The notes under the pieces are model-generated. The model did not search any database. It saw only the letters and a list, made by a program, of their open reading frames with translations, and was not told the DNA's origin. Positions 4,934 through 18,471 of a stretch of 41,809 nt of DNA are shown piece after piece. The position numbers and the translations under genes are program-made. This DNA comes from Candidatus Woesearchaeota archaeon (lineage in GTDB: Archaea; Nanobdellota; Nanobdellia; Woesearchaeales; GW2011-AR4): contig JAGVXV010000017.1 of assembly GCA_018303625.1 (NCBI GenBank), positions 1 through 41,809 of the forward strand, in the 5' to 3' direction. Numbering within the stretch: position 1 is the stretch's first letter; every line of letters starts with the position of its first letter.

Positions 4934-5554
4934 ATGGGGAAAAGCCTTTTTATAGTAATAGACGGCTTGGACGGCTCGGGCAAAAGCGAGATAGTAAAGA
5001 TGCTTCATAATTACCTCTTCTCAAAAAGCAAAAAATACAGGATTTTGACAACAAGGGAGCCAACAAACGGCACTTATGGGACAAAGATAAGAAAGATTTT
5101 AGGTGAAGAAAAAGATCCGGACGTGAATGCCGAAAATCTGCTGGAACTGTTTACAAAAGATAGGGATGAGCATTTAAAAAACGTCATTTTGCCTTTTCTG
5201 GAAAAATCAAATGAGCACGAATTAAACATTGTCCTATGCGACCGCTATTACTATTCAACAATTGCTTTCCAGTGCACTCAAGGCCTGGATGTCAGAAAAG
5301 TAATAGAAAAAAACGAAAAATTCAGGAAGCCTGATATAGCATTAATCATGGATATAGAGCCTGAAATTGCCCTGGATAGGATAAAATACAGGGAAAAGGA
5401 GAAATTCGAGCAGATAGGATTTATGAAAAAATTAAGAAAGAATTTTTTAAAGCTTCCAAGTTTATTGAGCGATAATATTAAAATTGTTGATGCATCTAAG
5501 AGTCTGCATGAAGTGTTTGAAGAAATAAAAAAAGAAGTTGATAAGCTGCTTTAA
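4934..5554 (+). CDS. tmk: Thymidylate kinase (dTMP kinase)
   Basis: This enzyme phosphorylates dTMP to dTDP with ATP, an essential step in dTTP synthesis. The 206-residue length is standard. The P-loop is GLDGSGKS (residues 11-18). TTREPTNGTYG gives the DR(E)P-type loop that binds the nucleotide monophosphate, and CDRYYYSTIAFQ contains the conserved DRYxxS motif. The LID segment is DRIKYREKEKFEQ. The start ATG has a TATA-like stretch (AATAAATAG, about 4905-4914) close upstream, suggesting a short leader. The 3' end overlaps the convergent alpha/beta-hydrolase-like gene by 4 nt. dUTPase, a second dTTP-pathway enzyme, is encoded at 19.0 kb. Confidence 0.92.
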   Translation: MGKSLFIVIDGLDGSGKSEIVKMLHNYLFSKSKKYRILTTREPTNGTYGTKIRKILGEEKDPDVNAENLLELFTKDRDEHLKNVILPFLEKSNEHELNIVLCDRYYYSTIAFQCTQGLDVRKVIEKNEKFRKPDIALIMDIEPEIALDRIKYREKEKFEQIGFMKKLRKNFLKLPSLLSDNIKIVDASKSLHEVFEEIKKEVDKLL

Positions 5555-6594
5555 GCTGCTTTCTTCATAGGCATTAACAGGTAACTGGAATTTATCGTCA
5601 TAGTCGGCTCAAAATTATGGTATTTTGCCTTTGCTGTTTGCCTGATTATATCTCCTAAAAACCTTGCATCTTTGCCTACAACTACGCTTGAATGCACTGT
5701 TGTTTTTGGAAGGGTATATACAGGGCATATTGTCGGCGCTTTTGAGTGTCCGCCAAACAGCGCCTCAAAAGGCTCCATTAATGGGGTGTTGGTGCTCACA
5801 TAAACAATCTTTTTTGGGTCTACATATTTTTCCATATCCCCCTTGTCACTATCTACACAATAAATCATGCTGATATTGTCATGACCATATTTTTTCACAT
5901 GATCGCGTATATCATCGTGACCACTGCTGTAGGCTATTACAATAGGAGCTTTTCCTACTGTTTTCATGGAGTAATTCAAAAAATCATTTAATCTTCCATC
6001 TTTTCTCCTAATCCTTATTGTAGGGATTCCTGTATATCTTTCTATATGCTTCCCAGTTACCGGAAAGCTTCCTAATCCTGGAGCTAATATAGCTATCAAA
6101 TCTGTATGTTTTGAGGCTTCCTGGATTTTTCTGTATGCGTCTTCCTCAGCCTCCACATCGAGATAACCTTTGACTATATTTGCAGTTTCCTTTACCCACA
6201 AGCCTATCTCAGAATCAAGAAAATGATCTTCGAGAACATCCTCCAGGTTCTTATCAAAAAATGATTCAAACTGTGACGCTTTTCCAGCACTTTTTACAGT
6301 ATCAGAAATATCTTTGCCTTTTGCGCCTTTCTCTCTTGACCTTGCTCTTGCCTCTTTTAGGCTTATAACCTTGCCATCGTAAACTGGCTTATTTTCTTCG
6401 CCATTCTCATAATCTCTAGAACTAACACTCCATTTTTTCCCTTCGCCATCTTCAGCTTCTTCCCCAGAACTATAAGTATCTTTAACATCCTTTTCCTCAT
6501 TTTCAGCTGAAGCCTTTTGGATTTCTTCCTTTTGGCTTTCAGCTTCGATTGTATTTGCTTCAGCAACAGCTTCAGCAGCGCCATCTTCACTCAT
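5551..6594 (-). CDS. Alpha/beta-hydrolase-like protein with acidic N-terminal tail
   Basis: The first about 105 of 347 residues are acidic, repetitive and probably disordered. The rest, about residues 160-330, reads like an alpha/beta hydrolase: APGLG after the first strand (171-175), a nucleophile elbow AYSSG with Ser223 (221-225), and His301 in KTTVHSS at the place of the catalytic His. The Asp expected after the sixth or seventh strand is not conserved (STNTPLMEP), so activity is uncertain. The same domain, by clear similarity along its length, is inserted in the ATP-grasp protein encoded at 7446-8876; shared stretches include PGLG, GxPTIR/GIKTIR, PIVI-A/G-YS, SDKG and DPK. It is the second gene of an operon, starting inside the end of the RHH regulator gene. 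Substrate unknown. Confidence 0.7.
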   Translation of the reverse strand: MSEDGAAEAVAEANTIEAESQKEEIQKASAENEEKDVKDTYSSGEEAEDGEGKKWSVSSRDYENGEENKPVYDGKVISLKEARARSREKGAKGKDISDTVKSAGKASQFESFFDKNLEDVLEDHFLDSEIGLWVKETANIVKGYLDVEAEEDAYRKIQEASKHTDLIAILAPGLGSFPVTGKHIERYTGIPTIRIRRKDGRLNDFLNYSMKTVGKAPIVIAYSSGHDDIRDHVKKYGHDNISMIYCVDSDKGDMEKYVDPKKIVYVSTNTPLMEPFEALFGGHSKAPTICPVYTLPKTTVHSSVVVGKDARFLGDIIRQTAKAKYHNFEPTMTINSSYLLMPMKKAA

Positions 6595-6939: not shown

Positions 6940-7419
6940 ATGCCTATAGAAAATCTAAACAGAAAATTAAGCGAAGTTCTTGAAAAATTGCATTATTTGG
7001 AGATGGTCATAAGGAACCTCAAGGAAAACCACGACTCTTATCTGGTTGATGTTGAGGGCATTGATGAAAAGCTGTTTGCCGAGATAGCCACCTATGAGAT
7101 CCTGACAGAAGAGATGAAAAAGGCTTTTTTGGAGCTTCTGATGAGCGATGCCATGTCAATAGCAGCGAGAGCGGTGCAGCAGCCTGATTTTCATGAAAAG
7201 GCATTTGAAATGCTAAGTGGCATAGAAAGAATGCTGCACAGCCTTTACAAGCATGAGAAGATTGACATAGACAGAAGCGAGGTATTGAAAGGGCTGGCAA
7301 CCAATGCAAATCAAGAGCTGACTAATATCAAAAACGAGATGGAAAAGCGGCTAAAAAAAGTTGAAAGTGATAGGAAGAATTTCTCAAGAACCCAAGACAT
7401 TCATAGGATATCAAAATAA
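6940..7419 (+). CDS. Conserved-looking helical protein, function unknown
   Basis: This 159-residue, almost entirely helical protein is not recognised. The N-terminal 35 residues (LNRKLSEVLEKLHYLEMVIRN) and the C-terminal third (NQELTNIKNEMEKRLKKVESDR) are heptad-rich and probably form coiled coils. The centre (residues 45-100) is less charged and includes EMKKAFLELLMSDAMSIAARA. There is no signal peptide, membrane segment or metal motif. The ATG at 6940 follows a TATA-like box at 6910-6917. The promoter carries both the repeated 19-nt upstream element and one TACTACT half-site, so it may share control with the divergent RHH operon. It converges on the ATP-grasp gene with a 26-nt gap. Confidence 0.65.
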   Translation: MPIENLNRKLSEVLEKLHYLEMVIRNLKENHDSYLVDVEGIDEKLFAEIATYEILTEEMKKAFLELLMSDAMSIAARAVQQPDFHEKAFEMLSGIERMLHSLYKHEKIDIDRSEVLKGLATNANQELTNIKNEMEKRLKKVESDRKNFSRTQDIHRISK

Positions 7420-7445: not shown

Positions 7446-8876
7446 TTATAATGTTGTTATAGCCCTTGACTGCAATATGAAAATTTCTTTGTTTTTAACC
7501 GCGAATTCTATGTCCTGCGGCTTTTTGTACAATTTCTCAATTTTAGCCCCGATTTTGGCAATTTTCACAATTATACCTTCATCGATATCCTCTGTTACCT
7601 GCCTGTTTTTTATTTCAAAATTTTTCCTGCCGATAAAATAGCTGTTTGGAGTCACTTTCCCTGAAACCAGTTTTTCCCCAATTCCAAGTGTTGCCTCAAC
7701 CAGAATGTCCTTTTTATAGATAGGGTCTACAGTGAACATAACTCCTGCAAAATCCGGCTTAATCATTTCCTGTACTACTACTGCTATTCCAAACAAATTG
7801 AAATGCATTATCTCAAGAGTTTCTTTTATTATACCCTTGATAAAGCTAATATCCAGAGAGTTCTTGACAAGGCTTACATGAGTTGCTCCAGGCACCTTGA
7901 AAACTGGCCTTTTTGTCCTGCCACCATAGCCTTCGCCATATCTCAGTAAAAGTTTGTCATAGGCAGGAGCAAGATTGTCTTTTTCTCCATTTATGTAGAA
8001 AACTCTTTTTGGATCCATTAATTCCTCTACCTTGCCCTTGTCAGAGCCTATCCCGTAAAACGCACTTACAATATTATTATCTCCGAATTCCTTCAGATAA
8101 TTGAAAAAGTACTTCTCTCCATCGCTGTATCCTATTACTATCGGGCATATTCCTGTCTTTTCAGCCGCAAGCATCAATGAATTATGGATGACTTCAGGAT
8201 CTCTTGAATCAACCCTTATAGTCTTTATTCCAGAATGTTTTTCTATATCATCTGCATCAAAAGGGTACTTTCCCAGTCCAGGCAGGAATATTATCGACAG
8301 TTTGTCGTATCCCAATTTTTTTGAAACCGGACTGAATATTTTTGTGCCTTTTTCCCTAAGCTTTGAGCCCTGCCCTATGTTTTTCTCTTTCCTGTAGAAT
8401 ATCGCCCTTGAGGTATAAAGCGAGGCCCAGCATTTCCTTATATGCTCAACAATTTTATTTTTTTTGATGAAAAGGTAAGTGTCCTGCTGGCCTGCAAAGC
8501 TTGCTTTTGGCAGGTCTTCTGCAGTTGCGCTGCTCCTCACTGCAAAATTATCAGCCTTGATTTTTTTTAATTGGTCTTCTATTTCTTTTATTAAATTTTT
8601 ATTTATTTTTCCTTTTAATATCAAATCTCTGATTTTTTTGGAATTTGCATCCAAATTTTTAGTGTTTTTGCAGTTAATTCCCATGATTATTGATCCTATT
8701 TTTTTATTTAATTTGTTCTCATCTAAAAATCCGTAATAAGCTTTTGTAGTTGCCGTAAATCCGTCTGGAACGTTAAATCCGCTGTTGAATAATATGCCCA
8801 GATTTACTGCTTTGCCTCCTACAGTTTTTATGTCGTTTTTTTTCGTTTCCCTGAATGTAAGTATGTCTTTTGGCAT
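7446..8876 (-). CDS. Split dikinase ATP-grasp subunit (PPDK_N / PEP synthase N-domain) with inserted alpha/beta-hydrolase-like domain
   Basis: The 476-residue protein is the ATP-binding domain of PEP synthase/PPDK/rifampin phosphotransferase-type enzymes and stops where that domain ends. Landmarks: VGGKAVNLG (19-27), RSSATAEDLP (114-123) with SFAGQQDTYL (126-135), CWASLYTSRAIFYR (149-162), GIAVVVQEMI (363-372) with GVMFTVDP, ATLGIGEKLVSG, and the terminal PQDIEF...ILQSRAIT (453-474). Between YR (162) and GIAVV (363), where relatives have a loop of about 10-15 residues, sits a roughly 195-residue domain (about 165-359). It has PGLG (199-202), a GYSDG elbow with Ser251, Asp300 (INGEKD) and His333 (GATHVSL). 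There is no His swivel and no PEP-binding barrel; five swivel proteins are encoded just upstream in the same direction. It is predicted to transfer a phosphate from ATP to their His. Confidence 0.88.
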   Translation of the reverse strand: MPKDILTFRETKKNDIKTVGGKAVNLGILFNSGFNVPDGFTATTKAYYGFLDENKLNKKIGSIIMGINCKNTKNLDANSKKIRDLILKGKINKNLIKEIEDQLKKIKADNFAVRSSATAEDLPKASFAGQQDTYLFIKKNKIVEHIRKCWASLYTSRAIFYRKEKNIGQGSKLREKGTKIFSPVSKKLGYDKLSIIFLPGLGKYPFDADDIEKHSGIKTIRVDSRDPEVIHNSLMLAAEKTGICPIVIGYSDGEKYFFNYLKEFGDNNIVSAFYGIGSDKGKVEELMDPKRVFYINGEKDNLAPAYDKLLLRYGEGYGGRTKRPVFKVPGATHVSLVKNSLDISFIKGIIKETLEIMHFNLFGIAVVVQEMIKPDFAGVMFTVDPIYKKDILVEATLGIGEKLVSGKVTPNSYFIGRKNFEIKNRQVTEDIDEGIIVKIAKIGAKIEKLYKKPQDIEFAVKNKEIFILQSRAITTL

Positions 8877-8882
8877 TTTTGA

Positions 8883-10436
8883 TCACTTTTCAAGCAATAT
8901 CACAACACCATGATTTGCCTTTACTTCGACTAAATTGCCATTCTTAAGCTGTTTTGTCGCTGTTTTGGTTCCTATGATGCAGGGTATTCCAAGCTCCCTT
9001 GCAACTATTGCGGCATGGCTCGTAATGCCGCCCTCGTCTGTCACAATCGCTGCTGCTTTTTTTATTGCAGGAAGGTATTCGGGCCTTGTCATTGATGCAA
9101 CAAGAACTTCGCCATTCCTGAAATTTACAATATCCCCATGGCTTTTGCAGACCCTTACTTTTCCTGCTGCAGAGCCCTGGGAAGCGCACATCCCGCTGAG
9201 CTCCTTAAATTCCTCTTTCTTGTATTTTTTAAGTAAATTAAGGTATTGTCTGTATTTGTTTCCTGTTAGAACCTCAGTAACGAGTACTTTTGCATTTCCT
9301 TCCGCAATAATTATACATCCTTTCTTCCTGTTTTCCAGAAATTTGTTATCTATTTTAGATAAATCTTTCTCTCTCACTTCATAAGGAAGAAGGTATCTGA
9401 CAAATTCTTCCTTAAGGCTGTGCCTTTTTCCTATCTCAACCAGCAATAAATCAAGGTAATGGATTGTTTTGAGAATATGCATTTTCCTGTCATCCTGCCA
9501 TGCTCCAATCTGGTTGGATATTTCTATCAAGTCCCTTAATTCTTCTGGAAAGTTTAATTTTTTAAGCATAGACTTCTTTTCTTTCAGACTGTTTTTTAAT
9601 TTTCCCTCTTGTCTTGAAATTAATTTTTTTGCATACATTCCTTTTTTCAGCATTATTTTCAGCTCGGAAACAAAGTTATTAAGCGTTAAGATTTTGGAGC
9701 CAGCATAAAAGTTTTTTATCCAGTAGTATTTTTGCCTGTGGCTTTCAAGCATAGAATAAAATTTTTTAAAATCTTTTAATCTTGATAAGATAATTTCTGC
9801 ATTTTCGCTTTTGAAAATCCCGGATAGTTTTTTGTTGTTCTGTATCTCAGCTAAAATCCGCAATAAATCCCTGCCTTCTTCCAGCATAAATGAGGATTTA
9901 TCAGGCATTGTTACAATATTAAAAACCTCGCTGGGCTTTTTATTTGTTTTTTTCTTAAGAAGATGCTCTTCAATGCCTTTCTTTATCTTAAAATCGTATG
10001 TCAGCGCAAAGCCCTCTATTATATGGGATCTGTCAAGCAATTGACTATAATAATTCGATGTCTGCTGGTACAATTCAATCAGTTTTCCTGTCAGCTCATT
10101 TTCCACATTAATTGTATCAAGATAATTAAAGAATTTGAATATTTTTTTAAAATCGCTATTGTCTTTTTTTATAAGTGATTTTATATAGTTTCTGTTTTTT
10201 TTGAAATTATCTACTATATTCTCCCCAATCTTTCTTAAATCATCAACACCATAATGGTACTCGTTATAGTCATTCTTGAAGGCGTGAATCATTGCGCTGT
10301 AGCCATAGCCTACTTTCCTATTGCAGCCGACCATTCCTGAAGTCATCCCGAAAAAAATTAAATTTGGTGTGCAGTTAAATCCCTGTATGTACCATTTCCT
10401 TTTCGCGAGATGCTCGAATTTCTTTGCCTTGTTCAT
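8883..10436 (-). CDS. PEP-utiliser-type phosphohistidine swivel protein 5 (nearest the ATP-grasp gene)
   Basis: The ATG at 10436 is one base after the Pta stop and gives 517 residues; the longer frame upstream lies inside pta and is rejected. The N-terminal about 360 residues are helical, starting KRKWYIQGF. They carry the array motifs TMPDKSSFMLEE (177-188), YYWIKNFY (237-244), and WQDDRK (313-318) followed by HY (326-327). The C-terminus is a PEP-utiliser mobile domain: GEVLVASMTRPEYLPAIKKA and DEGGITSHAAIVAREL with the phosphorylatable His474. ATP-grasp and PEP/pyruvate TIM-barrel domains are absent. The ATP-grasp gene begins 6 nt downstream, so this is its closest partner. The arrangement equals the last two domains of rifampin phosphotransferase. 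The substrate is unknown. Confidence 0.85.
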   Translation of the reverse strand: MNKAKKFEHLAKRKWYIQGFNCTPNLIFFGMTSGMVGCNRKVGYGYSAMIHAFKNDYNEYHYGVDDLRKIGENIVDNFKKNRNYIKSLIKKDNSDFKKIFKFFNYLDTINVENELTGKLIELYQQTSNYYSQLLDRSHIIEGFALTYDFKIKKGIEEHLLKKKTNKKPSEVFNIVTMPDKSSFMLEEGRDLLRILAEIQNNKKLSGIFKSENAEIILSRLKDFKKFYSMLESHRQKYYWIKNFYAGSKILTLNNFVSELKIMLKKGMYAKKLISRQEGKLKNSLKEKKSMLKKLNFPEELRDLIEISNQIGAWQDDRKMHILKTIHYLDLLLVEIGKRHSLKEEFVRYLLPYEVREKDLSKIDNKFLENRKKGCIIIAEGNAKVLVTEVLTGNKYRQYLNLLKKYKKEEFKELSGMCASQGSAAGKVRVCKSHGDIVNFRNGEVLVASMTRPEYLPAIKKAAAIVTDEGGITSHAAIVARELGIPCIIGTKTATKQLKNGNLVEVKANHGVVILLEK

Positions 10437-10437
10437 C

Positions 10438-11430
10438 TTAAAGATTCTTGTTTGCCATAAAAGCGCATAGCATAACAGTGTTTGCAATGTCTTCTGGCTT
10501 AAAAGTCCTTCCAAGGTCATTTACAGGCTTCCTGAATCCCATATTTAGAGGCCCAATATACTGCACATCCCCAAATTCCATCCATAATTTAAGGCCGATA
10601 TTAGCAGAAGTTAAATCTGGAAATACTAGGCAGTTAGCATCGCCTTTAACAGGGCTTTCAGGGCATTTTCTCATAAATCCTTCCTTCAAAATAGCGGCAT
10701 CAAGCTGCAGTTCACCATCTATAATCAAGTCAGGCTTTTTTTCCTTGGCTATTTTTACTGCATCCCTGATTCTTTTCAGGCTTGGATGCTCTCCGGAGCC
10801 TTTTGTTGAGTAGGAAAGCATTGCAACTTTTGGCTTCATTCCTAAAGCCTCTGCTGCCATTGCTGTATTTACTGCAATGTCTGCAAGCTGCTCTGAAGTA
10901 GGTTCTATATTTATGTCAGCATCGGCGCAAAGGAAAACCTTATTGAACTTTTTGTCAAGCATTATGCTTACTCCGGCAACGGTGCTTACTCCCTCTTTTG
11001 TCCTTATTACCTGCAAAGCTGGCCTTATCAATGAGGCAGTAGGATAAACGCATGTCCCCGTCATGGCATCGGCTTTTCCTCCATAAAGCAGCATTATTCC
11101 AAAATAGAATTGGTCATTGAGAAGCTTTTTAGCCTCTTCCAGTGTCAGGCCTTTATTTTTTCTCAATTCATACAACAAGCCTGCAAGCCTATCTTTTTCT
11201 TTGGAAGTAGAAGGCGTTATTATCTCGGTATTTCCCAAATCAAGATTTAATTTTTTGATGCTTGCCTCTATTTTCTTAATATTTTCTCCTATTAATATCG
11301 GCACTGCTATTTTCTCCTTTAGGATGATGTCTGCTGCTTTTACAACCCGTTCATCATCCGCCTCCGGAATTATGACTCGAGCCTTTTTTTGCCTTGCAGT
11401 TTCCAGCAGAAATTTTTTTATATCAACCAT
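10438..11430 (-). CDS. pta: Phosphate acetyltransferase
   Basis: The enzyme interconverts acetyl-CoA plus phosphate and acetyl phosphate plus CoA. The 330-residue length is that of the single-domain catalytic form. Family features include VIIPEADDERVVKAA near the N-terminus, GGKADAMTGTCVYPTASLIRP cut by family-typical loops, MLSYSTKGSGEHP, DGELQLDAA, and the C-terminal VFPDLTSANIGLK with IGPLNMGFRKPVNDLGR. It sits inside the swivel-protein array, upstream of swivel protein 5 with a 1-nt gap. A GGAGATC-type ribosome binding site and a TTTTTAAAAG stretch in the 65-nt gap upstream suggest an additional internal promoter. No acetate kinase is in the window. Most archaea use ADP-forming acetyl-CoA synthetase, so a Pta is notable; transfer from bacteria is likely but unproven. 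Confidence 0.92.
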   Translation of the reverse strand: MVDIKKFLLETARQKKARVIIPEADDERVVKAADIILKEKIAVPILIGENIKKIEASIKKLNLDLGNTEIITPSTSKEKDRLAGLLYELRKNKGLTLEEAKKLLNDQFYFGIMLLYGGKADAMTGTCVYPTASLIRPALQVIRTKEGVSTVAGVSIMLDKKFNKVFLCADADINIEPTSEQLADIAVNTAMAAEALGMKPKVAMLSYSTKGSGEHPSLKRIRDAVKIAKEKKPDLIIDGELQLDAAILKEGFMRKCPESPVKGDANCLVFPDLTSANIGLKLWMEFGDVQYIGPLNMGFRKPVNDLGRTFKPEDIANTVMLCAFMANKNL

Positions 11431-11495
11431 AGGATCTCCATACTATGCTAAGGAATATGGCCCTTTTAAAAATTTTCTGTATTATTAACAATAAC

Positions 11496-12893
11496 TTAGC
11501 CCAGTATCTTAATAGTTCCGTGATTTGCATTTACTTCCACAAAATCCCCATCCTTTAGCATCAAGAGAAGATGCTTTATGCCGACAATACATGGCTTCTT
11601 AAGTTCCCTTGAAACAATAGCGGCGTGAGATGTAATCCCGCCAGTTTCTGTAAGTATGGCTTTTGCCTTGCTCATTATAGGAAGATAGTTTACATTAGTA
11701 TACGGTGCCACTAAAATATCCCCATCCTTAAACTTATGGATATGGCTTATATTGAGGATTATGCTTACCCTGCCTTTAACATTCCCGGGCGAAGCAGGCA
11801 GCCCTTTCAGCTCTTTTGCCTCGCCCTGTGAAGAAACCAGAATAAAGTAATCATCTGGAGCGTTTGAAATTGCCTCATTTTCTATAAGATACGCCCAGCG
11901 TCTATTTCTTTTTTCTATATCTTGTATGCTATACCCCTTTAGATAATGAATAATTTCATCAGGAGACAATTGGCATATATTTTTTAGTTTAGAAATTGAT
12001 ATACGCCCTAACTTATATTCCATTACCTTCCTTATATAAACATTAACTTTATTGAGAACTTCTTTCTTTCTCTCATTGTAAAGGAAAAGCAGCTCCTGTA
12101 TCATATTCACTTTCTGCAAAAGCTCTTTCGGCAGTTCTTTGTTAAGTCTTTTAATTTTGCTGATTCTCTCCAATGAGCCATTTAAATGCTGTTGTAAGCT
12201 TTTCCTATCCCGCCGGAATTCATTCATCTTCTTTTTCACATAATTTTCATCAATAATATGCCCTAAATAATCATGTATCAGCCAATAAAACTCGTCTGCA
12301 ATTTCTTTTTGGGCTTTTTTATTCTCCAATGCCCCTGAAATCTCAAATAAAAACTTTTCATAATTTGTTTTTCGAACTGAAGAAATGGAATAATGAAAAA
12401 TCTCTTCCTTTTTATCATTTGGCAGATTTAATTTATCATATATTTCTTTTCTTAATTTATCAGTCAGATAGACCTGAAATAAAAACCCTGGGCCATCGAC
12501 AATTTGCGCATAACTTGAAATCAAGCTGAATAGCTGCCTTAATTTCATTTCTCCGTTCTTGTTTAGCCGCTTACCTATAAAAAGCTGACTTATGGGAGTT
12601 TTGATCGTTTGAAGTAAAATAAGGGATACTTCTTTTTCCTTTTCTCTGATTTTTTGGATATATTTGGGGCGAGAAAAAATATAATCAAAGACTTTTATGG
12701 CAGTTTTCTCCAGTTTCCTGTCAAAAAACCAGTGTTTGGAGCCATCTATGATTATTACAATGACTTTAGCTGGCTTAATGCCCAAACCTATCAGTTTCTC
12801 GAATTTCCCGCTGAATATTTTTCCCACTAAACAACTCGGAAAAAACGGAGTTGTTGATGTTTTATATACCAGATGATATTGCTCAGGGTTCAT
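11496..12893 (-). CDS. PEP-utiliser-type phosphohistidine swivel protein 4 (diverged)
   Basis: This 465-residue member of the array has its start overlapping the upstream gene's stop by 4 nt (ATGA). The swivel domain is clear: GDILVAPYTNVNYLPIMSKA, then TETGGITSHAAIVSREL with His423, and the ending GDFVEVNANHGTIKIL. The N-terminal part is distinctive (HLVYKTSTTPFFPSCLVGK, later KVIVIIIDGSKHWF). The central motifs seen in proteins 2, 3 and 5 are eroded: the YFWI-K/R-N motif is missing, and the QDxRK region reads LYNERKKEV. Phosphorylation of His423 should still be possible, but the substrate pocket presumably differs. No ATP-grasp or PEP barrel is present. It is followed by a 65-nt gap before pta, the largest inside the unit. 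Confidence 0.82.
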   Translation of the reverse strand: MNPEQYHLVYKTSTTPFFPSCLVGKIFSGKFEKLIGLGIKPAKVIVIIIDGSKHWFFDRKLEKTAIKVFDYIFSRPKYIQKIREKEKEVSLILLQTIKTPISQLFIGKRLNKNGEMKLRQLFSLISSYAQIVDGPGFLFQVYLTDKLRKEIYDKLNLPNDKKEEIFHYSISSVRKTNYEKFLFEISGALENKKAQKEIADEFYWLIHDYLGHIIDENYVKKKMNEFRRDRKSLQQHLNGSLERISKIKRLNKELPKELLQKVNMIQELLFLYNERKKEVLNKVNVYIRKVMEYKLGRISISKLKNICQLSPDEIIHYLKGYSIQDIEKRNRRWAYLIENEAISNAPDDYFILVSSQGEAKELKGLPASPGNVKGRVSIILNISHIHKFKDGDILVAPYTNVNYLPIMSKAKAILTETGGITSHAAIVSRELKKPCIVGIKHLLLMLKDGDFVEVNANHGTIKILG

Positions 12894-14338
12894 TTTATCT
12901 TCCTCACAATTCCCTTGTCTGTATCCACTTCAATAAGCATGCCATTTTTCAATGATTTTGTGGCGATTTTTGCCCCTACAATGCAGGGTATGCCCAGCTC
13001 TCTTGAAACAATAGCTGCATGACTAGTCATGCCCCCTTCGTCTGTGATAACAGCGGCAGCTTTTCTCATGGCAACAACAAAATCCGGGGATGTCATTGGA
13101 GCGACTAAAATTTCGCCTTTTTTCATTTTGTTTACGTTCCTTGGAGTAAGCAATATCCTGACTTTACCTTTCACGGATTTTTTGCCAAAGCTCACTACCA
13201 TTCCTTTTATTGAATCTGTGTCCTTGTTTACTTCCTTCTTTAGAAATGGATTTACTTTCTTCATTATTTTTTCTCCTGTTTCAAAAACTAAACTTCTCTT
13301 ATGATAATGGAATAAGCACTTTCTTTTTCTTTGATTTATTATTGAAGTATTTACTTTTTTACCATCTTTCATCAACTTTGCAAGGTCATCTCCAGAATAG
13401 TACTTTAAGTCAAGAAACCTTACCTTCTTTCTCCAGGAAATCTGCCTGAGGAACAGGTCGATATAATGGTTTGAGGTGAATATCTGCTCTTTTCTTGCAT
13501 CCTGCCACCATATGGAATAGCTTAGTCTTTTTGCTATTTTCATTATATCTTTATCCAGATTATAATCTCTTGAAATTAACATTTTTTGCTTTAAAGTTTT
13601 CGCAGGGATTTCCATTATTTTCTTTATTTTAATCTTAGCCTCGCTGCTTTTGATCTTCTTTAACTGTTTCCTAAAGTAATTGTGGCCTAGTATTTTCTGC
13701 TCAAAATAGCTGTTGTTAATCCAGAAATATTCCCTGCAGTGGGAGTTAAGCAGCTGATTGAAGATTTTTTTATTTTTTGACATTTCTTTGATTTTCAGCA
13801 GATTTAATTCTTCTTTCTGGTAAAAGGAATAATCTTCCGGGGCAGTTAATTTCTCAAACAATCTTAAAAATTCTGCTTCATTTTCGATAATTTTATGCAA
13901 TTCTTCCTTTAGTATCTGCTCCCCTCCCCAGTTTGAAAGCTCAGGAACAAGGCCGACTGTCCAGAATTTCAGATATAGGGAGTTCCATTTCTGGAACATG
14001 GCATTGAACTGCTTTTCACTTAGTGAATCCAGGTGTTTTTTTGTTATAGTTTTCTCGATATCTCTAAGCTCCTTTCTTGCAGCCTTATAGTCTGTTTCCA
14101 GCTTTTTCAGGTTTTTGTCATCCATAATCCATTTCGTAAATGATTTCTTTCCGGCATTCCGCAAATCTGTGTAGTCTGCTATTAAGGTCATCTTTGTTTT
14201 TGAGAAATAAAAAAGAAATTCCGGCCAATGATAAGTATATTTTGGCTTTTGGTACATTATCACGATGAAATAGGAGGTGTATATCGGCCTTCCGTCAATA
14301 GGGCCCCATACGAACAATTCTTTATCTGGGCTTATCAT
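12890..14338 (-). CDS. PEP-utiliser-type phosphohistidine swivel protein 3
   Basis: This 482-residue protein has ATGA overlaps with both neighbours. The N-terminus is unique in the array (ELFVWGPIDGRPIYTSYF). The helical middle contains LTAPEDYSFYQKEEL, CREYFWINNSYFEQKIL and WWQDARKEQIF followed by NHYIDLFL, the most regular version of the shared motifs. The C-terminal swivel domain has GEILVAPMTSPDFVVAMRKA and DEGGMTSHAAIVSREL with His440. Met in GGM resembles PPDK (GGMTSHAA), whereas PEP synthases usually have TCHAA. It is predicted to be phosphorylated on His440 by an ATP-grasp partner supplied in trans and to pass the phosphate to an unknown acceptor held by the helical domain. Confidence 0.85.
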   Translation of the reverse strand: MISPDKELFVWGPIDGRPIYTSYFIVIMYQKPKYTYHWPEFLFYFSKTKMTLIADYTDLRNAGKKSFTKWIMDDKNLKKLETDYKAARKELRDIEKTITKKHLDSLSEKQFNAMFQKWNSLYLKFWTVGLVPELSNWGGEQILKEELHKIIENEAEFLRLFEKLTAPEDYSFYQKEELNLLKIKEMSKNKKIFNQLLNSHCREYFWINNSYFEQKILGHNYFRKQLKKIKSSEAKIKIKKIMEIPAKTLKQKMLISRDYNLDKDIMKIAKRLSYSIWWQDARKEQIFTSNHYIDLFLRQISWRKKVRFLDLKYYSGDDLAKLMKDGKKVNTSIINQRKRKCLFHYHKRSLVFETGEKIMKKVNPFLKKEVNKDTDSIKGMVVSFGKKSVKGKVRILLTPRNVNKMKKGEILVAPMTSPDFVVAMRKAAAVITDEGGMTSHAAIVSRELGIPCIVGAKIATKSLKNGMLIEVDTDKGIVRKIK

Positions 14339-15813
14339 TTTATCTTCCTTATAATCCCCTCTTTTACATTAACCTCTACCAGGTCTCCATTCCTCAGGGC
14401 TTTGGTGGCAACTTTTGTGCCTATAATGCAAGGTATGCCTAATTCCCTGCTTACAATTGCGGCATGTGAGGTTATTCCTCCTTCATTCGTTATTATTGCT
14501 TTCGCCTTCCTCATCAAAGGCACAAATTCGGGCCTCGTCATAGAGGTTACAAGTATCTCATCCTTGTTGAATTTTTCCTTATGCGGGTTATTTACAATTC
14601 TTACATTGCCTATTACATTCCCATTGCCCATGGATGCAACAATTCCGTTCAATTCCTCTTCCGAGCTTGATTGCAGTGACTCTGCAATAAACATAATATT
14701 TTCTGCTTTTTTCCCCTTGAGCAAAAGTTCCCCATCCCGATAAACCGCAAGTATGCAGCCTTTTGTCCTGCTTTTTGCCTCATTTATGTAGAAGTTTTTT
14801 TCTTTATAGAAAATATGCTTTATGTCATCAGGAAAAAGCTCTTCCACATATTTCAGCGGGATTTTTGACCTTTTGGATATTTCCTTTTGAAGAAAAAACA
14901 AGTAATGGGTCGTTACAAGCATATTCTTCTTTCTTTGGTCCTGCAGCCATACAAGCTTGGAAAGCAACTCAAATAATGCCTTGTATTTTTTTGCCAAGCT
15001 TAGTTTTTTAATTAGGGCATTTTTCTTTTTTATTAAATTTTTAATGCTTGATTGTAATTTTCCCAGTTCCTCTTTTATTGCATTAATGCCCCTGTCTTTT
15101 GTTTCCTCTTTAACATGAATAAGAAAATCATTTGGAGATATAATTTCAGTCCTCTCGTAGTTGTTTCTTATCCAAAAATATTTTCTTGAATGCTCATTGA
15201 GCATTTTTGTGAAATCCTTTTCCTTATCATAATAAGCAATGCACAGCTTAAGAAAGCCTATTCTCTCTTCCTCTATAAATGACCTTCCAATAGGTGATGA
15301 TAATATTAAAATGTAATCGTGCGCCATGCTTAAGTTTATGTTGAAATATTTTGAAAACTCCGGCGCAACCTTGGCATCAACATAAATGCCAGTTCCCTCT
15401 GCGCAGAGCGGTATAGAAAACTCTTTGATGTATAGTTCATTTAGTTTCAGATACATTCTTATCAAAGAATTATTGGAAATTTTGCTAAGAGCCGATTTTT
15501 CTATTTTTTGGCAATAATCTGTCAACGCTTTGCTGTAAGCCTTCCAAAGATTTATTCTTTTTTGGAAGTATTTTCTATCTTTCAAGTGTTTTTTATACAA
15601 AAAATCGGCAATTTCTATGCTTTCCTTTTCCATAAGAAGCTGGAGTGTATACCTTTTTTTGCATGGGAATATTCCAATAGAATACCCTTTAAGGTATCTG
15701 TTCATTTCTATAAAACCTTTGATGGGAGGGTACACTGTTGACAAAACGCACGGGCCTTCGACAATCCACCATTTCTCATTTCTGAGCAGGTTAATTATTT
15801 TTTCATAGTTCAT
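14335..15813 (-). CDS. PEP-utiliser-type phosphohistidine swivel protein 2
   Basis: This 492-residue protein has 4-nt ATGA overlaps at both ends. Its N-terminus, NEKWWIVEG, resembles KRKWYIQGF of swivel protein 5, and the two are the closest pair by eye. Shared motifs are SSPIGRSFIEEE (about 172-183), HSRKYFWIRNNY (208-219), and WLQDQRK (289-295) followed by HY (303-304). The swivel domain reads DEILVTSMTRPEFVPLMRKA and NEGGITSHAAIVSREL, with His450 as the predicted phosphocarrier. As in the other members there is neither an ATP-binding nor a PEP-binding domain, so it cannot be a self-sufficient PEP synthase. Many Cys and aromatic residues lie in the N-terminal 60 positions (FPCKKRYTLQ), possibly for ligand binding. 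Confidence 0.85.
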   Translation of the reverse strand: MNYEKIINLLRNEKWWIVEGPCVLSTVYPPIKGFIEMNRYLKGYSIGIFPCKKRYTLQLLMEKESIEIADFLYKKHLKDRKYFQKRINLWKAYSKALTDYCQKIEKSALSKISNNSLIRMYLKLNELYIKEFSIPLCAEGTGIYVDAKVAPEFSKYFNINLSMAHDYILILSSPIGRSFIEEERIGFLKLCIAYYDKEKDFTKMLNEHSRKYFWIRNNYERTEIISPNDFLIHVKEETKDRGINAIKEELGKLQSSIKNLIKKKNALIKKLSLAKKYKALFELLSKLVWLQDQRKKNMLVTTHYLFFLQKEISKRSKIPLKYVEELFPDDIKHIFYKEKNFYINEAKSRTKGCILAVYRDGELLLKGKKAENIMFIAESLQSSSEEELNGIVASMGNGNVIGNVRIVNNPHKEKFNKDEILVTSMTRPEFVPLMRKAKAIITNEGGITSHAAIVSRELGIPCIIGTKVATKALRNGDLVEVNVKEGIIRKIK

Positions 15814-17195
15814 TTTCTCAGTATTCTTATAACGCCATTATTTGCATCAACTTCTACAAGGTCTCCATCTTTTAATATAGAGGTAATGTGGCTTACTCCG
15901 ACAATGCAAGGCACTTTCAGTTCCCTGGAGATTATGGCTGCGTGGCTTGTAATGCCGCCTTCCTCAGTCACTACAGCAGCCGCCTTTTTCATTATAGGAA
16001 CAAACTCAGGCCTTGTGGCTTCCGAAACAAGTATTTCTCCTTTATTGAATTTTTTGAAATCCTTCTGCCCCATAACAATTTTGACAATGCCTTTAGATTT
16101 ACCCTTTGATGCTATAACTCCTTTCAGTATTTCTTTGCTATCTTTCCTTATTTTTTTTATTGCTATGCCTTCAAGATAAAAGACCTTATTATTTACCCAA
16201 CCCATTGAGACATTTTTTCTTTTCAAAAGCTTTTTCTCAAGCTTTTTTGGGTTTTTCATAAAATCCTTAAATTCAAACCAGAACATCCTTAGGAGAATGT
16301 CCTTTTTATTCTGTAGGCTCTTTCTTCTCAAGCCTTCTTCAAGGAACCTTATCAGTATAAACTGCCCTGTCTGATTCAGCCTTTTCCTTAAATCGCGCAA
16401 TGGCAGGGATTTTGCAAGTATTTTAAGGATTATTTTTTCCTCTTCATTTAATTTTGTGATAAATTGTGAAATTTCAATCTTGGGGATTGTTTTATGTTTT
16501 CTTTTATTAATATGCAAATACTCCATGTCCTTTTTTATTGCATTCTTGTTAAGGAATTTTGAATCATGATAATTGGACTTTATATAAAAAAAATTGTTTA
16601 TTATTTTATTGCACATAGGTATATTATTATTCATGGAAAGTCTTCTTAGGCTATCTTCATACTCTATCATATAGCTTTTATAGCCCTTGTTTTCGCTATC
16701 AATATAGGAAAAAATGAAGCTTTCTGCCTTTTTGTTTACCGGACTTAATTCCGACATTAATTTCTCGGCAAGGTGGGATTCATAAATATAAGTTACAGCC
16801 CCGACTCCGAAATAATGCACATAATCCTTGATGAATTTTCCATACAAGTCCAAAAACCTTTTATCGGATAATTGTTTGAGATTCTTCATTCTAATCTTCC
16901 AAAAATAATCCAGCTTTCTTATCCCATTATCAACATCTTTTCTTACCTTTTTGAAGAAATCGAATGACAGATTTTTATTTAAAATCAAATTAACAAGCTT
17001 TTGACTCTCTTCAGCAAACAAATCTGAGCGTATATATTCCTCAGCATGCTTGTTATTTCTTAAAACTAACCCCCAGTCCATTATATATACAGGAAAAAGG
17101 GACTTTGTTTTTTTTACTACTTCTATAGTGAGGGATGCTCCGAAAATAGAGGCTTCGAAGCCGCTAAGCTTGTCCATCTCTGCTAGGTATTTCAT
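15810..17195 (-). CDS. PEP-utiliser-type phosphohistidine swivel protein 1 (first of the array, diverged)
   Basis: This 461-residue protein is the first swivel gene in transcription order, starting 21 nt after the acyltransferase stop. The N-terminus has an alternating hydrophobic pattern (EASIFGASLTIEVVKK) absent from the others. The middle is helical; the aromatic motif is reduced to NNFFYIKSNYHDSKFL and the later one to PLRDLRKRLNQ, without the HY pair. The swivel domain is intact: GEILVSEATRPEFVPIMKKA, TEEGGITSHAAIISREL with His418, and GDLVEVDANNGVIRIL. With protein 4 it forms the diverged subset. It is probably translated with the following three genes as a coupled block. No ATP-grasp or barrel domain is present. 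Confidence 0.83.
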   Translation of the reverse strand: MKYLAEMDKLSGFEASIFGASLTIEVVKKTKSLFPVYIMDWGLVLRNNKHAEEYIRSDLFAEESQKLVNLILNKNLSFDFFKKVRKDVDNGIRKLDYFWKIRMKNLKQLSDKRFLDLYGKFIKDYVHYFGVGAVTYIYESHLAEKLMSELSPVNKKAESFIFSYIDSENKGYKSYMIEYEDSLRRLSMNNNIPMCNKIINNFFYIKSNYHDSKFLNKNAIKKDMEYLHINKRKHKTIPKIEISQFITKLNEEEKIILKILAKSLPLRDLRKRLNQTGQFILIRFLEEGLRRKSLQNKKDILLRMFWFEFKDFMKNPKKLEKKLLKRKNVSMGWVNNKVFYLEGIAIKKIRKDSKEILKGVIASKGKSKGIVKIVMGQKDFKKFNKGEILVSEATRPEFVPIMKKAAAVVTEEGGITSHAAIISRELKVPCIVGVSHITSILKDGDLVEVDANNGVIRILRK

Positions 17196-17216: not shown

Positions 17217-17813
17217 TCATTCCTTATATTTTATGATTTCAATGTCTTTCTTCAGTTTCATATCCTCTGGAGTTAATTTCTTTATAGGCTTTGCAGGTAT
17301 TCCTCCAACAAACATATTATCCTCAACATCACTGCTTACAAAGCATATGGCTCCTGTTATTGCATTTTCCCCTATTGTCACGCCTCTTCTTATTATAGTG
17401 TAGCCTGAAATCATCGCATTTTTCCTGATTATAGTCCTGCCAAGAGAAAATGATTCGCGAAGAAATTCATGAGTTGCAAGCTCGCAGTCAGAGCCTATCA
17501 TTACGCCATCTTGGATTGTTAAAAGTTCTGGAAACAAAGGATCCGGCAGGACATTATAAGCTATGGAAACGCCTTTGCCTATCCTGACTCCAAAAATCCT
17601 GTAAATTGCATTCTTGATTTTGCATGGCGGTGTTTTCCGCAAAATCTCAAAAATCAAAGCGGTAAAAAGCATCCTTAGGGGATTTCTCAGCTTATGCCAG
17701 TCATTCTGGGAGCTGGATTTATTTCCCTTATACGCAAAATTCACCAGTCTTATATCTTTATTGTTAAGAATCTGTTTTATTACCCTTCTTACTTCTCTCC
17801 AGTATTTAGACAT
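17217..17813 (-). CDS. Left-handed beta-helix acyltransferase B
   Basis: This 198-residue protein of the hexapeptide-repeat acyltransferase superfamily (LacA/CysE/WbbJ-like) has an N-terminal helical half (about 1-75) that contains RNPLRMLFTALIFEILRK. The C-terminal half has the hexapeptide pattern: VRIGKGVSIAYNV, VMIGSDCELATHEF, AMISGYTIIRRGVTIGENAIT, ending in VGGIPAKPIKKL. The His of ATHEF is the candidate catalytic base. Enzymes of this type O- or N-acetylate sugars with acetyl-CoA, and the PAKxIK ending is typical. It is a tandem paralogue of the next gene upstream (same WHKLRNPLRML / WSRLRNPLRML core). The downstream Pta could influence acetyl-CoA supply, which is speculative. The acceptor is unknown. 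Confidence 0.83.
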   Translation of the reverse strand: MSKYWREVRRVIKQILNNKDIRLVNFAYKGNKSSSQNDWHKLRNPLRMLFTALIFEILRKTPPCKIKNAIYRIFGVRIGKGVSIAYNVLPDPLFPELLTIQDGVMIGSDCELATHEFLRESFSLGRTIIRKNAMISGYTIIRRGVTIGENAITGAICFVSSDVEDNMFVGGIPAKPIKKLTPEDMKLKKDIEIIKYKE

Positions 17814-17850: not shown

Positions 17851-18471
17851 TTAATTATTTTTCTCTTTAGAATTGTACATTATCACTTCGCTGACTTCGC
17901 CATGCTGCTTCCTCTCAGCCAGATAAGTCTTTTTGTCCAGCATCTTAATAACTTTTGCCGGAATCCCTGCAACAAAGCTGTAGGCAGGAACATCATCCCT
18001 GCAGTAAGAGAACAGGCCTATAATGCTTCTTTCACCGATATCAACCCCTGGATTGACGCAGACCCAAGAAGCCAGCATTGCCTGCTTTCCTATTCTAACT
18101 CTGCCGAGCATAATCCTATCTATTATGAATTCATGGGTTGCAATTATCATATCCCCTCCAACTAAAACTCCATCATCAATCGTTATCAGCTCCGGGAATA
18201 GCCAATCAAGGATGACATCAGGGCTTATTGTAACATCCTTCCCTATTTTAACTCCAATCATCCTGTAAAGGTTGTTCTTGAATTCGCAAGGAGGCAGTTT
18301 CCTGCAAACCTCGACAATAAAAGCGGTCCATAGCATCCTTAATGGGTTCCTTAGCCTGGACCATTCATAAGCAGAATTAAGCCTGTTCATGTCATATTTT
18401 ATCTTGACAATCTTGGCATTTTCGTTATTCAGAAATTTCCTTACTTCTTCCTTTATGTAGTCTTTCGCCAT
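17851..18471 (-). CDS. Left-handed beta-helix acyltransferase A
   Basis: This 206-residue hexapeptide-repeat acyltransferase is paralogous to the gene at 17217. Shared parts are RLRNPLRMLWTAFIVE, KLPPCEFKNNLYRMIGVKIG, the sentence-like VILDWLFPELITIDDGV, IATHEF with the candidate catalytic His, and the terminal VAGIPAKVIKML. The beta-helix coils run from about residue 70 to 180. The helical N-terminus could mediate trimer contacts or membrane association; it has no clear transmembrane span. The gene starts 14 nt after the small membrane protein gene and ends 37 nt before its paralogue, so all three probably share a transcript. Sugar or lipid-headgroup acetylation at the cell surface is a reasonable guess from the family. 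Confidence 0.83.
   Translation of the reverse strand: MAKDYIKEEVRKFLNNENAKIVKIKYDMNRLNSAYEWSRLRNPLRMLWTAFIVEVCRKLPPCEFKNNLYRMIGVKIGKDVTISPDVILDWLFPELITIDDGVLVGGDMIIATHEFIIDRIMLGRVRIGKQAMLASWVCVNPGVDIGERSIIGLFSYCRDDVPAYSFVAGIPAKVIKMLDKKTYLAERKQHGEVSEVIMYNSKEKNN

Follow-up and report, generated by a model that had tools for sequence, protein, structure and literature searches.

An Apparent Alpha/Beta Hydrolase Nested in the ATP-Grasp Component of a Probable Dikinase from a Woesearchaeal Archaeon

Introduction

Does a gene of a Candidatus Woesearchaeota archaeon encode one enzyme nested inside another and, if so, which enzymes are these and how might they have come together? The gene in question lies at positions 7446-8876 of a stretch of 41,809 nucleotides (contig JAGVXV010000017.1), referred to here as the window. 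The original prediction held that an alpha/beta-hydrolase-like domain interrupts a PEP-synthase-type ATP-grasp domain; it did not mention the gene's minus-strand orientation, and it missed both the insert homologue encoded at 5551-6594 and the existence of relatives whose ATP-grasp gene lacks the insert.

Results and Discussion

The Host Protein and Its Operon

The gene and the parts of its product are as follows:

8876 -> 7446, minus strand: ATP-grasp (PPDK_N) component with nested alpha/beta hydrolase, 476 aa, ATG start
8382..8876, minus strand: N-terminal ATP-grasp part, residues 1-165 (RPH alignment)
7794-8381, minus strand: inserted alpha/beta hydrolase domain, residues ~166-361 (profile, AF2, Foldseek)
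7449..7793, minus strand: C-terminal ATP-grasp part, residues 362-476 (RPH alignment)

The 476-aa protein belongs to the PPDK_N family (Pfam PF01326; 259.6 bits against a curated cut-off of 27; total E 6e-77), which it matches in separate stretches before and after the insert. Alignment to RPH-Lm with phmmer paired residues 5-165 with RPH 5-169 and residue 363 onwards with RPH 177 onwards, leaving ~197 residues where RPH-Lm has 7 (RPH 170-176). The predicted splitting of the PPDK_N core and the short loop expected of relatives at this site were both confirmed in this way; the predicted length of the insert, ~195 residues, also stood, while its bounds moved from residues 165-359 (7800-8384) to those listed above. 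Lys22, Arg114, and Thr133 correspond to RPH Lys22, Arg117, and Thr136, which are required for ATP phosphotransfer in RPH (PMC4844700), and Glu457, Gln469, and Arg471 align with RPH Glu297, Gln309, and Arg311.

Of the description as a PEP-synthase-type ATP-grasp, the PPDK_N-type fold was upheld and the link to PEP synthase was not. Pfam searches found neither a swivel nor a TIM-barrel domain in the 476-aa protein, and a separate canonical PEP synthase of 795 aa is encoded elsewhere in the genome (contig C43). Identity as a PEP synthase was rejected on the grounds that the PEP/pyruvate-binding TIM barrel is absent both from this gene and from the swivel proteins of its operon, the genes of which include 4-base overlaps:

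8883..10520, minus strand: swivel/substrate protein 1, C-terminal PEP-utilizers phospho-His domain (Pfam, AF2); true start likely 10436
10438..11430, minus strand: phosphate acetyltransferase homologue (PTA_PTB; Pfam)
11496..12893, minus strand: swivel/substrate protein 2 (Pfam, motif)
12890..14338, minus strand: swivel/substrate protein 3 (Pfam, motif)
14335..15813, minus strand: swivel/substrate protein 4 (Pfam, motif)
15810..17195, minus strand: swivel/substrate protein 5 (Pfam, motif)
17217..17813, minus strand: hexapeptide-repeat (LbH) acyltransferase 1
17851..18471, minus strand: hexapeptide-repeat (LbH) acyltransferase 2

The histidine predicted to be phosphorylated is absent from the 7446-8876 product and resides on the operon's other proteins, with all five swivel proteins carrying a GG[IM]TSHAAI phospho-His motif and a C-terminal PEP-utilizers domain. 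In Foldseek, the AF2 model of swivel protein 1 (pLDDT 83.5) matched, along its length, the RIF-binding domain of RPH together with the swivel domain (5fbu, 1.7e-15, 583 columns). In the two-component dikinases HpeHI, CreHI, and PpsAB, the ATP-grasp and the swivel/substrate protein are encoded separately (PMC12167813); the same is found here, where both parts are on separate genes encoded together and the partner combines a RIF-binding-like domain, modeled for swivel protein 1, with a C-terminal GGxTSH swivel. Taken together, these comparisons suggest that the label of PEP synthase should give way to that of an ATP-grasp-only component in a two-component dikinase of the RPH/HpeHI type.

One stand-alone ATP-grasp gene was found in this genome (G000; draft, 95% complete) along with its five partners, and the number of swivel proteins per such gene was 6 in a second genome (G008) and about 13-14 in a third (G343), counts that are approximate because the draft genomes are incomplete. 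This hub-like pattern, a single stand-alone ATP-grasp gene per genome accompanied by 5, 6, ~9, or ~13-14 paralogous swivel proteins, was seen at window positions 7446-17195, on G343 contigs C52/C7, and on other contigs. In three genomes (L011:17755-18357; L099:8255-8893; L050:2442-3071), a HAD-family phosphatase gene, confirmed by Pfam in two of them, adjoins ATP-grasp or swivel genes; none is present in the window's own operon. Regulators of the TrmB type (sugar-specific) lie near the clusters of three genomes (L050:1706-2446; L099:14022-14756; L097:9999-10730), a hint that sugars may be among the substrates.

The Insert as an Alpha/Beta Hydrolase

The residues proposed for the active site were located at the following codons:

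8124..8126, minus strand: codon of Ser251, nucleophile elbow GYSDG (249-253)
7977..7979, minus strand: codon of Asp300, GEKD (297-300)
7878..7880, minus strand: codon of His333, GATH (330-333)

These residues, together with PGLG at residues 199-202, are exactly as first predicted. Both inserts, from this genome and from G008, keep the full Ser251/Asp300/His333 triad in canonical order, and alignment of the insert's family showed Ser and His to be invariant in 10 of 10 members, with Asp common and not universal. The loss of the catalytic Asp from several stand-alone homologues implies that part of the hydrolase family may not be catalytic.

A search of the insert alone, as a single sequence, against Pfam up to E 10 gave no match. 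With a profile (A4) built from the alignment of the 10 family members, the top PDB matches in hmmsearch were alpha/beta hydrolases: 4x00 (5e-4), bromoperoxidase 3fob (2.5e-3), chloroperoxidase 4dgq (4.5e-3), and lipase estA 3qmm (0.014). With hhalign (4.5e-6), the family could also be tied to Woesearchaeal proteins of a lipase-like family that itself matches Lipase_2 and Abhydrolase_1. Among weak order-wide matches (E 1e-4 to 1e-10), those inspected proved to be proteins of ~800 aa that carry an HSMGG domain of the lipase type; these were excluded as members of the insert's family and count as independent support for the fold.

The AF2 model of the whole 476-aa protein was built on a shallow alignment of 13 rows, only 4 of them hydrolase rows, and reached a mean pLDDT of 74 and a pTM of 0.61. 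Its outer part was matched by Foldseek to RPH (5hv1, 9.6e-23), HpeI (9goj, 1.3e-20), and the PEP synthase 2ols, and its insert to the minimal lipase 6nkc (7.8e-5, prob 1.00, TM by target 0.62) and also to 1isp; a comparison with viral models added nothing specific. Within the insert, modeled with moderate confidence (core blocks ~63-84), strands and helices alternate in a beta/alpha topology and Ser251 directly follows strand 246-250, placing the nucleophile elbow after strand 5 as in alpha/beta hydrolases. Confidence was poor at 166-190, 299-319, and 355-361, so that neither the placement of the domain nor the geometry of the triad is fixed by the model; pLDDT drops below 50 across 299-319, Asp300 included, and it is the order of the residues that supports the triad. 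Profile and structure searches thus agree with the proposed hydrolase assignment, and the predicted structure divides, as anticipated, into an outer part resembling RPH and HpeI and an insert resembling lipases. Sequence profiles and modeling alike support the reading of the insert as a minimal alpha/beta hydrolase that sits within an intact ATP-grasp of the PPDK_N type.

Conservation in a Second Genome

Among 353 genomes of the order that were searched, the nested form occurs in two, this genome and G008, which represents a different genus of the same family and whose contig (L015) was deposited as Ca. Woesearchaeota isolate RIFCSPHIGHO2_02_FULL_44_15. Both proteins are 476 residues long with coinciding junctions and are 77% identical overall (insert 80%, insert core 84%, N half 71%). 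For the insert, dN/dS came to 0.08-0.12, and for its core to 0.077; synonymous sites are close to saturation. The pS between the two genomes was 0.57 in the insert, below the values of 0.73 and 0.84 for the two ATP-grasp parts, possibly as noise at saturation. A scan of contigs with the hydrolase alignment matched only that of G008, viral contigs scanned in the same manner yielded no relative, and searches of plasmid and phage proteins with the insert gave no match. In a phylum-wide search of 371 genomes, full-length relatives were confined to the same order; among the matches listed for the order-wide PPDK_N search, only the strongest, canonical genes appeared.

An assembly chimera, which the original prediction had named as a possible source of error, or a misread gene is virtually impossible: the frame is open without stops, and the same gene with the same junctions recurs on a contig that was deposited separately and comes from another genus, which refutes this account. 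Hardly more credible is an intein or other self-removing element, a reading that draws on the over-long frames (about 1200 aa) of PEP synthases in several relatives; the insert sits in a different protein and a different domain from those, has no match to an intein family in Pfam, and is homologous to stand-alone hydrolase genes, by which this account too is refuted. The ~1200-aa canonical PEP synthase frames are an observation in their own right (G008:C64 38302-40863, with similar frames in G003, G060, G097, and G124), and the PEP-utilizers domain of the G008 frame appears to be interrupted by about 1.2 kb in an intein-like manner. On the evidence of sequence conservation, we conclude that the insertion is real and under selection.

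Origin of the Insertion

A homologue of the insert is encoded near the nested gene:

5551..6594, minus strand: stand-alone insert homologue, 347 aa (sequence comparison)

This protein has an acidic N-terminal region of ~130 aa followed by an alpha/beta hydrolase domain that is 29% identical to the insert over 207 residues; its catalytic Asp is not conserved and its His region is shifted by one residue. A stand-alone paralogue lacking the Asp beside a nested copy with the full triad would fit a division of labor. Most of the stand-alone hydrolases begin with a long N-terminal region that is charged and probably disordered, and a [KRQ]KAA-like tail ends five of the eight non-nested hydrolase proteins (window 5551-6594; L048:1039-2094; L049:8877-9851; L050:7664-8782; L013:9945-11753). 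A 159-aa gene of no known family, on the plus strand at window positions 6940-7419, separates the ATP-grasp gene from the stand-alone hydrolase.

Uninserted ATP-grasp genes of 286-311 aa were found in five relatives (G098, G242, G340, G343, and G345), three of which were included in the flank alignment around the insertion site. In G242 and G340, a stand-alone hydrolase is the next gene on the same strand after the uninserted ATP-grasp gene. The domain tree groups the two inserts with the two neighboring stand-alone genes (82/85, only moderate support for this fork) and then with G242 (98/98). From the uninserted relatives, the adjacent stand-alone gene, and the domain tree, the simplest history is one of duplication followed by insertion: the neighboring hydrolase gene was likely duplicated, and one copy entered the ATP-grasp gene in a common ancestor of the two genera. 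The site corresponds to RPH-Lm 170-176, and residues 165-172 of RPH-Lm are disordered in all its crystals (PMC4844700), so that an insertion there is expected to be tolerated. A further genome (G005, L013:9945-11753) encodes a 602-aa protein in which the hydrolase domain comes after two LbH-type acyltransferase domains; gene adjacency and two different fusions together argue that the hydrolase belongs to the split-dikinase pathway.

Proposed Mechanism and Alternatives

By analogy with RPH and HpeHI, the ATP-grasp would bind ATP, the swivel histidine of a partner (T-S-H-A-A motif) would take the beta-phosphate as AMP and Pi leave, and the charged swivel partner would phosphorylate its own small molecule. 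A copy of the neighboring hydrolase would have entered a tolerant N-terminal loop in the ancestor of the two genera, leaving both folds intact, and the insert, kept near the dikinase through the fusion, would act as a serine esterase or de-acylase whose substrates are metabolites of that pathway. We regard it as quite probable that the gene encodes an HpeI-like, shared ATP-grasp of an RPH-type dikinase bearing a copy of its neighbor as a tethered esterase or de-acylase of that pathway. Taken singly, an active serine esterase or de-acylase in the nested domain seems somewhat favored, and de-acylation of metabolites within the dikinase pathway may be put forward tentatively. More speculative is a hub in which the ATP-grasp charges 5 to ~14 swivel paralogues while hydrolase, phosphotransacetylase, and LbH proteins couple the de-acylation of small molecules to phosphorylation of these within one complex; PTS Enzyme I likewise serves many acceptors. 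The original prediction had suggested that hydrolysis or acyl chemistry might be coupled to His phosphorylation.

The main rival to a tethered enzyme is that the insert retains its hydrolase fold but acts as a docking or substrate-recognition module through which the ATP-grasp selects among swivel proteins, with no importance attaching to catalysis by the triad. An aid to docking might be of use because the complexes of HpeH with HpeI are only transient (PMC12167813), and both the numerous swivel proteins per ATP-grasp and the lost Asp of several family members agree with such a role. Yet the insert is absent from relatives that have just as many swivel proteins, and the invariance of Ser and His across the family and the full triad of both inserts also speak against it; we therefore find docking doubtful. 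It is unlikely that the insertion is a neutral, tolerated fusion of neighboring genes with no functional coupling beyond co-expression. Its site in a loop disordered in RPH and the rarity of the nested form would suit neutrality, but the insert is conserved as strongly as the ATP-grasp across near-saturated synonymous divergence, and the same domain adjoins or is fused with other cluster members in other genomes. A tethered esterase or de-acylase is thus the reading we prefer.

Significance and Comparison with Known Systems

Because uninserted relatives, a donor-type neighbor gene, and the insertion site can all be identified, the insertion event can be reconstructed; adjacency and the two different fusions are genetic evidence that ties the hydrolase to the split-dikinase pathway. 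'Phenylphosphate synthase' annotations have been given in DPANN genomes (PMC8091004), and we infer that genes of such clusters may underlie them. The literature, covered in part, yielded neither an alpha/beta hydrolase nested in an ATP-grasp nor a Woesearchaeal cluster of this kind.

To our knowledge, the nesting of an alpha/beta hydrolase in an ATP-grasp is undescribed. The closest counterpart of the 7446-8876 product is HpeI (PDB 9goj), which is likewise a stand-alone ATP-grasp beside a separate swivel gene but has no inserted domain. RPH-Lm (5fbs, 5hv1, 5fbu; PMC4844700) shares the ATP-grasp on both sides of the insert, whereas it is a single polypeptide and has only the 7-residue loop where the insert lies; the comparison implies no rifampin function for the Woesearchaeal system. 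PEP synthase and PPDK have the PPDK_N and swivel domains in common with the system, and they alone have the TIM barrel. The insert resembles B. subtilis lipase A (1isp, 1i6w) and Lip_vut1 (6nkc) in fold, Ser-Asp-His order, and size (~170 aa); it is 14-17% identical to these minimal lipases and, unlike them, is nested in another enzyme. The described HpeHI-type systems act on phenols, whereas no aromatic pathway genes were recognized here. Finally, HpeHI, CreHI, and PpsAB pair one ATP-grasp with one swivel protein, a trait of the described two-component dikinases that is perhaps not a defining one, in contrast to the one ATP-grasp gene with five or more swivel/substrate proteins of the Woesearchaeal cluster; what is new here is this accompaniment of one ATP-grasp gene by many swivel proteins, together with the nested architecture itself.
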